Assembly (NCBI RefSeq): GCF_900187975.1
Contig: NZ_FZPC01000005.1
Coordinates: 62,001 to 126,000, forward strand
DNA length: 64,000 nucleotides
Reading direction: 5' to 3'
DNA from: Pseudomonas delhiensis
Lineage (GTDB): Bacteria > Pseudomonadota > Gammaproteobacteria > Pseudomonadales > Pseudomonadaceae
In this document: positions 7,172 through 9,190 of the stretch, piece by piece
Layout of the letters: every line of letters begins with the position of its first letter
Numbering within the stretch: position 1 is the first letter of the stretch
Made by a program: the position numbers and the translations under genes
Notes under the pieces: generated by a model
The model's database searches: none
What the model saw: the letters and a program-made list of their open reading frames with translations, nothing else
What the model was told of the DNA's origin: nothing

Positions 7172-9190
7172 ATGCGTTATTCGTCGCTTGTGGACAGGAT
7201 GGTCGGGCCGGGCGCAGCCGCCTGGGATATCCACTACGCCGCCGTGGCGGCGCAACGCGCCGGGGAGGATGCGATCGTCCTCAGCGTCGGCGATCCGGAC
7301 TTCGCCACGCCGGCCTTCATCACCGACGCCGCGGTGGCCGCGCTGCAGGCCGGCGACACCCACTACAGCGACGTGGCCGGGCGAGCGGAACTGCGCCAGG
7401 CCATCGCCGACCTGTACCGGCGACGCTTCGACCTGCCGCTGGGCGCGGACAACGTCATCGTCCTCGCCGGCGCGCAGAACGCCCTGTTCGCCGCCGCCCT
7501 GTGCCTGCTGGAGGCCGGCGACGAAGTCATCGTCTTCGACCCGGTCTACGTCACCTACGAAGCCACCCTCAAGGCCACCGGCGCGAAGCTGGTGGCGGTG
7601 CCGACCCCCGCCGGCAACGGCTTCCGCCTCGACGCCGCGGCCCTGGAGGCGGCCATCACCCCGCGCACCCGGGCGATCTTCTTCGCCAACCCGAACAACC
7701 CCACCGGCGTGGTCATGCGCCCCGACGAGCTGCGCGCCATCGCCGCCGTCGCCGAGCGCCACGACCTCTGGGTGGTGGTGGACGAGGTGTACGAGGCGCT
7801 GACCTTCGAGCAGCCGCACCAGAGCTTCGCCGCGCTGCCGGGCATGGCCGCGCGCACCCTGAGCCTGGGCAGCCTATCCAAGTCCCACGCCATGACCGGC
7901 TGGCGCGCCGGCTGGATAGTCGCCGAGCCGACGCTGGTGACGCACATCGAGAACCTGGCGCTGAACATGCTCTACGGCCTGCCCGGCTTCGTGCAGGAGG
8001 CCGCCCTGGCAGCGGTGCGGCAGCACGACCAGGTGGCCGCCGGCATGCGCGAGGTCTACCGCCGCCGCCGCGACCTGGTCGTGCAGCGCCTGGCGCGCAG
8101 CCCGCGGTTGCAGGTGCTGAGCCCCGAGGCCGGGATGTTCGTGATGGTCGACGTGCGCGGCACCGGCCTGAGCTCCCTGGACTTCGCCTGGCAGCTGTTC
8201 CGCGCCCGCGGCGTGTCGGTGCTCGACGCCGCCGCCTTCGGGCCCCAGGCCGACGGCTTCGTGCGGCTGTCCTTCACCCTGGCCGACGAGACCCTGGCCG
8301 AGGCCTGCGAGCGCATCCTCGCCTTCGTCGAGGGCTTGCCTGAACCTGTAGGAGCGGGCCCTGCCCGCGAATCGCGCGCAGGGCGCGCTCCTACACAGAG
8401 CGTACCGGCACAGCCCGCCGGCAAGCCGGTGATCGAAGTCCGCGACCTGCACAAGCGCTTCGGCCAGTTCGAGGTGCTCAAGGGCGTGTCGCTGTCGGCC
8501 CGCGAGGGCGGCGTGGTGTCGCTGATCGGCGCCAGCGGCTCGGGCAAGAGCACCCTGCTGCGCTGCATCAACATGCTGGAGGTGCCCAACGCCGGCAGCG
8601 TCAGCGTCGATGGCGAGACCATCCGCCTCGACCAGGACCGCCACGGCGAGCCGCGGGTGGCCGACCAGAAGCAGCTGACGCGGATCCGCTCGCGGCTGGG
8701 CATGGTGTTCCAGAACTTCAACCTGTGGCCGCACCGCACGGTGCTGGAGAACCTGATGGAGGCGCCGACCTTCGTCCTCCACGAGAGCCGCGCCGAGGCC
8801 CGCGAACGCGCCGAGGCGCTGCTGGCGCGGGTGGGCCTGGCGGAGAAGCGCAACGAATACCCGGCCTTCCTCTCCGGCGGCCAGCAGCAGCGCGTGGCCA
8901 TCGCCCGCGCCCTGGCGGTGCGGCCGAAGGTGATGCTGTTCGACGAGCCGACCTCGGCGCTGGACCCGGAGCTGGTCGGCGAGGTGCTGCGGGTGATCCG
9001 CTCGCTGGCCGAGGAGGGCCGCACCATGATCCTGGTGACCCACGAGATGGCCTTCGCCCGTGACGTCTCCAGCCACGTGGCCTTCCTCCACCAGGGCCTG
9101 ATCGAGGAGGAGGGCACCCCCGGGGAGGTCTTCGCGCGGCCGCGCAGCGAGCGCTGCCGGCAGTTCGTCAACGCGCACCAGAATCGCTGA
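7172..9190 (+). CDS. Fused aminotransferase / polar amino-acid ABC transporter ATPase joined by a translated REP
   Basis: One 672-codon frame carries two normally separate proteins. Residues 1 to about 390 are a fold-type I PLP aminotransferase (ANPNNPTG at 172-179, D204, Y207, PLP-lysine K237 in SLSKSHAMTGWRAGW). Residues from about 420 form a complete HisP/GlnQ-type ATPase (Walker A GASGSGKST 453-461, LSGGQQQR signature, Walker B LFDEPTSALD, LVTHEM H-loop). The linker at about 393-408 reads VGAGPARESRAGRAPT and is an in-frame translation of a 48-bp REP palindrome (8348-8395). A TGA at 8341-8343 in another frame suggests the aminotransferase once ended there. An internal GTG at 8429 could start a separate ATPase but has no good ribosome-binding site. 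Downstream are the binding protein and two permeases. The frame is certain; whether a single polypeptide is made is not. Confidence 0.85.
   Translation: MRYSSLVDRMVGPGAAAWDIHYAAVAAQRAGEDAIVLSVGDPDFATPAFITDAAVAALQAGDTHYSDVAGRAELRQAIADLYRRRFDLPLGADNVIVLAGAQNALFAAALCLLEAGDEVIVFDPVYVTYEATLKATGAKLVAVPTPAGNGFRLDAAALEAAITPRTRAIFFANPNNPTGVVMRPDELRAIAAVAERHDLWVVVDEVYEALTFEQPHQSFAALPGMAARTLSLGSLSKSHAMTGWRAGWIVAEPTLVTHIENLALNMLYGLPGFVQEAALAAVRQHDQVAAGMREVYRRRRDLVVQRLARSPRLQVLSPEAGMFVMVDVRGTGLSSLDFAWQLFRARGVSVLDAAAFGPQADGFVRLSFTLADETLAEACERILAFVEGLPEPVGAGPARESRAGRAPTQSVPAQPAGKPVIEVRDLHKRFGQFEVLKGVSLSAREGGVVSLIGASGSGKSTLLRCINMLEVPNAGSVSVDGETIRLDQDRHGEPRVADQKQLTRIRSRLGMVFQNFNLWPHRTVLENLMEAPTFVLHESRAEARERAEALLARVGLAEKRNEYPAFLSGGQQQRVAIARALAVRPKVMLFDEPTSALDPELVGEVLRVIRSLAEEGRTMILVTHEMAFARDVSSHVAFLHQGLIEEEGTPGEVFARPRSERCRQFVNAHQNR
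8348..8395. repeat. REP type A palindrome inside a coding frame
   Basis: The element begins GTAGGAGCGGGCCC and ends GCGCTCCTAC, two inverted arms around a short core, 48 bp or 16 codons. The same family occurs at 19163, 19329, 19493, 19660, 28308, 28478, 44668 and 46830, always between genes. Here it sits in frame between the aminotransferase and ATPase domains. Confidence 0.9.

Follow-up and report, generated by a model that had tools for sequence, protein, structure and literature searches.

In the cited passages, REPINs of Pseudomonas are described as residents of extragenic space (PMC3116915; PMC3733652). REPs inside genes have been reported as well. Di Nocera et al. (2013) describe such cases, among them REP dimers that code for 20-30 residues in ORFs, and propose flexible linkers as REP-tolerant sites; the recB genes of two Xanthomonas species carry different REPs at about the same site (PMC3733652). 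Palindromic repeats that lie in frame in conserved protein genes are also known as Rickettsia palindromic elements (PMC10969869; PMC2229807), and a guanylate kinase containing one of them is described as made and active (PMC2229807). In-frame REPs are thus already known; a translated REP in the linker of a protein fusion, apparently rewritten time and again, is new. Here we analyze such a linker in Pseudomonas delhiensis, where it joins an aminotransferase to the ATPase of an ABC transporter.

The window, a stretch of 64,000 nucleotides, contains at 7172-9190 a forward-strand ORF of 672 codons with no internal stop. The preliminary description had read this ORF as an aminotransferase and an ABC ATPase in one frame, with a REP at 8348-8395 read between the two domains, and both the ORF and the Pfam matches bear it out (Table 1). 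Aminotran_1_2 matches residues 33-382 with 240.5 bits, above the PF00155 gathering score of 19.7 bits, which places this half in class I/II, and the best solved sequence match is the aspartate aminotransferase 1j32 (E 1e-64). ABC_tran matches residues 436-595 with 123.1 bits, and the best solved match of the second half is the histidine permease ATPase PDB 1b0u (phmmer E 2.6e-100). Since the ATPase half scores 368.7 bits against the HisP model (NCBIfam equivalog), under the cut-off of 466, it is a relative of HisP and not HisP itself. Purifying selection acts on both halves of the fused gene, with dN/dS values of 0.08-0.23 for the aminotransferase and 0.04-0.27 for the ATPase (7 pairs each).

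The gene order of fusion, binding protein, permease and permease is kept in fused loci with enough sequence, mostly with the regulator and the deacylase next to it. Among solved structures, the product of 9259-10047 matches arginine-, lysine/arginine/ornithine-, histidine-, octopine- and nopaline-binding proteins, and on the strength of these matches the importer substrate is probably a cationic amino acid or derivative. Downstream, the RAYT at 13409-13861 scores 150.6 bits against NF047646 (cut-off 80) and places a RAYT gene in this genome, about 5 kb from the coding REP. Type-D REP heads lie around it at 13319-13389 and 13944-13992, so type A may have a different mover.

Table 1. Features of the fused gene and its surroundings (positions in the window).
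Feature	Position	Strand	Basis or remark
Fused gene: class I/II PLP aminotransferase + polar-amino-acid ABC transporter ATPase, 672 aa	7172..9190	+	ORF, profile matches, same fusion elsewhere
Aminotransferase half	7172..8335	+	Pfam Aminotran_1_2, residues 33-382
Interdomain linker, residues 389-419; length and sequence vary among species	8336..8428	+	comparison of fused genes
REPIN, two inverted type-A REPs, one-base spacer, 48 bases, read as VGAGPARESRAGRAPT	8348..8395	+	repeat, copy and folding analyses
ATPase half (ABC_tran)	8429..9187	+	Pfam; first codon GTG
Solute-binding protein, cationic amino acid/opine kind	9259..10047	+	profile and solved matches
Permease 1	10096..10806	+	profile match, gene-order comparison
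Permease 2	10817..11566	+	profile match, gene-order comparison
TetR/BetI-like regulator (putative start codon)	11563..12372	-	adjoins operon in most relatives with enough sequence
AstE/AspA-like deacylase (putative start codon)	12266..13303	+	adjoins operon in most relatives with enough sequence
RAYT (REP-associated tyrosine transposase), candidate REP mover	13406..13861	-	type-D REP heads flank both sides

Bases 8348-8395 correspond to codons 393-408, translated as VGAGPARESRAGRAPT; lying between the domains without interrupting the frame, the REP encodes part of the linker. Its identification as a 48-base, 16-codon type-A REP also stands, and it belongs to a dispersed family. The REP head has 32 matches in the window with one mismatch allowed, versus 0.87 +/- 0.93 in 100 shuffles, and bases 8346-8395 recur as two exact 50-base reverse-complement copies (19162-19211 and 19492-19541). 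Genome-wide, P. delhiensis holds 318 matches to the 22-base head of type A, along with 50, 116 and 372 matches to three other REP head types. The REPIN is predicted to form an RNA hairpin of -43.6 kcal/mol (z -6.3). Other repeats of the window include a 166-base unit with REP heads of more than one type, which occurs four times at intervals of about 165 bases (19074-19736). A different repeat family at 58019-59422 comprises seven copies with a 184-base spacing and two other palindromes (GGATAACGCC... and CGTAGGGCG...), the seventh copy being only 66% alike, and four long similar stretches at 37893-50198 (spacings 3.1, 6.2 and 1.7 kb) are apparently repeated genes.

The coding element thus lies not in extragenic space but inside a conserved ORF with purifying selection on both sides, a GTAG-ended REP contained fully within an ORF of more than 120 aa. 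We compared it with 30 other type-A copies, the first 30 of 316 in contig order, a non-random sample with several copies in shared clusters and three near a contig end. Eighteen of these 30 lie in no ORF of at least 200 codons that extends 30 codons beyond the REP on both sides; for the remaining 12 there are 16 such ORFs, and in the one that has a Pfam domain this domain follows the REP. A Pfam-recognized protein on both sides of the REP in one frame was seen at none of the 30 sampled copies in the P. delhiensis genome, and the notion that REPs often sit inside genes of this species was rejected on that count. Calling a REP linker uncommon, as had been done at the outset, is therefore fair for this genome, but intragenic REPs have been published (PMC3733652).

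Of the 25 genus genomes, 21 have a full-length match to the fusion (E up to 1e-200), as do 53 of 398 family genomes, the latter being an even draw from a larger group. Of the 118 loci among the best matches listed, 89 carry the fusion as a single open frame and 29 are unfused, a ratio that describes best matches and is no frequency. The 89 fused loci represent 74 distinct proteins, of which 21 belong to the genus and 53 do not; named loci were assigned outside the genus via identity, shared contigs and partly the tree. Named species with the fused gene include P. citronellolis, P. panipatensis, P. nitroreducens, P. resinovorans, P. jessenii and P. simiae. An exact REP head stands in the linker of 19 of the 21 genus proteins and of none of the 53 distinct proteins from outside, in which 29-36 residues separate the last aminotransferase motif from the ATPase start. 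These REP-less homologues, together with that of P. panipatensis, imply that the REP entered an already existing linker. Read from this distribution, the fusion predates the REP and did not depend on it: the fusion came first and the REP second.

Unfused relatives bear on where the halves came from (L and G numbers designate loci and genomes). Halomonas sp. EAR18 (L089) has the same five genes in the same order with the first two separate, one stop and 177 bases lying between the matched domains. These unfused neighbors make it probable that the two halves descend from adjacent genes of one operon, an origin that the preliminary description had already suggested. G026 has an unfused operon with the aminotransferase at its far end, and in L090-L109 except L093 the aminotransferase is present with no close relative of the fusion's ATPase within the stretch compared. 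The same fusion and operon are found on Agrobacterium rubi plasmid pW2_73_1 (L151 6001-8004), where the fused gene is one annotated CDS of 667 aa, annotated as aminotransferase only. Its junction has no REP head and no start codon at the ATPase start. The plasmid is typed as conjugative and its host is alphaproteobacterial; horizontal transfer of the fused operon is probable.

Within the genus, the linkers of the 21 fused genomes fall into 18 with two inverted arms able to form a hairpin, one with a decayed second arm (L003), one with a remnant (L011) and one with none (L005, P. panipatensis). All 18 two-arm linkers read the first REP codon in the same frame. Elements measure 47, 67, 70, 76 or 91 bases; apart from the 47-base form, these lengths are equal modulo three, which is what protection of the frame would predict. 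None of the four REP heads counted is matched in the P. panipatensis genome, just as none stands in its linker, and the genome of L011 (G004), with its linker remnant only, has four REP-head matches. Every other fused genus genome has at least 161 matches to the four heads. The first arm of L003 has a CCATG core, as do 30 of 37 type-A heads of its genome among the matches listed; in G010, CCCTG is found in all but two type-A heads among the matches listed. The second arms of L016 and L003 are decayed rather than genomic variants. Judged from these alignments, a REPIN entered the linker in the P. citronellolis / P. nitroreducens group, the frame staying open.

By counts of the four head types, the linker arms are mostly dispersed genomic REP types, and the 47-base element of L001 and L002 is identical over its whole length to genomic copies. 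The extended D arm is present in 15 of 25 genomes at 1-21 copies each, the linker's own copy included; the exact extended-arm core of L018 and L021 occurs, within those two genomes, at the fused gene only. With two mismatches allowed, the D-type spacer is found once each in exactly 6 of 25 genomes, at the fused gene only. The B-type spacer is found once in 4 of 25 genomes, again at the fused gene only and in both subclades, a weaker result because the pattern was drawn from the same rows and misses a fifth B row (L014). Arms and surroundings were also compared pairwise, leaving aside L003, L005 and L011, from which no two-arm element could be cut out. In 28 same-type pairs the arms are 93% and 92% alike, versus 73% for the spacer, 66% and 68% for the flanks and 77% for third codon positions. 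The 125 pairs of different type have arm values of 69% and 80%, with the gene itself about equally alike (88%, versus 89% in same-type pairs). Mixed elements occur: the spacer next to the extended 5' arm of L015 and L021 is 88% similar to the one in the plain D rows, and L013 and L017 combine a C-type first arm with an A-like second arm.

On a tree built from both halves but not the linker, the four REP types change at least 8 times over 19 rows, L005 and L011 being out and L003 scored as type A. Trees that place all C rows in one clade were rejected, as were those that do so for the D, the extended-D or the nitroreducens-group B rows, and an eight-label count over all 21 rows gave 12 changes. 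A permutation analysis of linker type versus genome REP make-up gave p 0.013 for the same 19 rows and 0.045 for 15 rows, uncorrected for relatedness. The linker type thus follows the genome's REP make-up loosely, a moderate association, and the commonest genomic type often differs from that of the linker. The linker's own type was absent from its genome in none of the rows versus 1.6 expected, which is not significant (p 0.14).

How the junction arose, and whether it is read through, can be explained in other ways. The preliminary description had two genes with a REP between them joined recently through loss of one base near 8340, the aminotransferase having once ended at a TGA. A TGA does stand at 8341-8343 in another frame, and REPs, according to the cited passages, usually lie between genes and often just after a stop (PMC3733652). 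That triplet, however, is formed by a T and the GAA codon after it, and of the five fused genes in the citronellolis group only L001 and L003 have it, L002, L004 and L005 lacking it, so that a relic stop is unsupported; the TGA looks like a chance occurrence. The fusion also exists without the REP in P. panipatensis and in all 53 distinct proteins outside the genus, and REP-less fusions branching outside the REP-bearing clade refute recent joining, which we regard as extremely unlikely. An assembly frameshift was rejected as well. A slip is very unlikely, since P. citronellolis LMG 18378 (L002/L031), a separate assembly, has the same in-frame junction and the frame is also open across it in the other 19 genus fused genes. 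The fusion might instead be only partial, with the ATPase also started inside the linker to give two proteins. An ATG falls exactly at the ATPase start in 52 of the 53 distinct outside-genus proteins and the window gene has GTG there; a short ribosome-binding-like motif precedes that start by 5-14 bases in 7 of the 53. (The single exception, L115 of G131, has a methionine codon one codon earlier.) Yet in the genus this codon is GTG in 11, GTC in 9 and GTA in 1 of the 21 proteins, thus GTC or GTA in 10, the motif is found in none of the 21, and the A. rubi gene has no start codon at this point. We rejected a conserved internal start in the REP clade on these counts and consider internal initiation unlikely; the ATG outside the genus is apparently a relic of a once separate gene.

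The REP itself admits two further readings. Its hairpin might be selected, the mRNA (or DNA) palindrome pausing the ribosome or stabilizing the mRNA while the arms co-vary to keep pairing. Folding is consistent with this: z is -5.0 to -8.0 in four REP linkers versus dinucleotide shuffles, compared with -1.8 in a REP-less linker, and -2.9 to -9.7 in 18 elements versus simple shuffles, and arms that vary between types often agree with one another, at as many as 24 of 24 positions. The arm types are, however, the genome's own REP variants, which explains the co-variation without selection. Moreover, the arms match at only 13-15 of 24 positions in 6 of 18 rows (four of these being extended arms compared ungapped), and P. 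panipatensis and the 53 distinct outside-genus proteins manage without a REP, so selection on the hairpin is distinctly improbable. Alternatively, several REPs may have inserted independently at a hot spot in the linker, with arms never converted. The multiple REP types at one site would fit, as would Xanthomonas recB, in which different REPs occupy nearly the same site (cited passage of PMC3733652), and the end-to-end identity of the 47-base element in L001 and L002 with genomic copies. Against repeated insertion stand the B and D spacers, which are gene-specific and common to several species, and the extended 5' arm of L015 and L021 on its D-like spacer; we think this history rather unlikely.

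Instead we favor, with a probability of about 0.77, an old fusion whose existing linker later received a REPIN, with arms overwritten from the genomic pool, the gene yielding one protein of about 72 kDa and the REP being a passenger. The comparison shows an old Pseudomonas gene fusion, in which a variable linker connects the C-terminus of the aminotransferase with the importer ATPase encoded by the same operon. A single REPIN insertion may then have occurred in the common ancestor of the citronellolis/nitroreducens group, presumably tolerated because the site falls between domains. By event count, independent insertions in the two subclades equal one insertion plus one loss; a single insertion is favored because the B spacer is common to both subclades, the only evidence of this kind. 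The arms would subsequently have been overwritten several times by REP variants of the same genomes, through ectopic gene conversion or fresh RAYT-driven insertion, with linker alleles passing between species by ordinary recombination and the element being lost or decaying where a genome lost its REPs. If the whole gene is translated as one protein, each importer motor would carry an aminotransferase able to act on the incoming amino acid, probably a cationic one, and such tethering of enzyme to importer is plausible. On this view the REP is a passenger and spacer and did not bring about the fusion.

More tentatively, and with somewhat less than even confidence, the coding REPIN may work as a member of the genome's REP population, its arms overwritten in frame by the REP variants current in that genome, so that the linker evolves in concert with the family and vanishes with it. 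The locus offers one site where REP-family turnover shows in a protein: the gene fixes the position, the frame limits the lengths and the spacer records descent. The enzyme-importer fusion also offers a direct test of coupling between uptake and transamination. In open-licence PubMed Central, our literature search found no apparent description of an aminotransferase-ABC ATPase fusion and nothing apparent on concerted evolution of REPs.

Compared with the known systems, the ATPase belongs to the same family as the HisP-type enzyme (PDB 1b0u) and shares an operon with a binding protein and two permeases, but it has an aminotransferase on its N-terminus and scores below the HisP cut-off. With Rickettsia palindromic elements the linker shares in-frame palindromic repeats in conserved protein genes; by description those elements are Rickettsia-specific and about 105-150 bp long, in contrast to the Pseudomonas REPs of 47-91 bp found here (PMC10969869; PMC2229807). 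The likeness to REPINs and GTAG-type REPs, as the cited passages describe them, extends to the GTAG end, the hairpin-forming inverted pair, the hundreds of copies and the RAYT in the genome (PMC3116915; PMC3733652), the difference being that the window element lies inside a conserved gene and in its reading frame. Closest are the intragenic GTAG REPs of Di Nocera et al. (PMC3733652), which likewise include REP dimers in ORFs, coding there for 20-30 residues and here for 16-30. Relative to the cases described in the cited passages, the present linker differs in its occurrence across 21 genomes of one genus, its repeated changes of type, its loss in a REP-free genome and its gene-specific spacers, and its host gene is an enzyme-transporter fusion.
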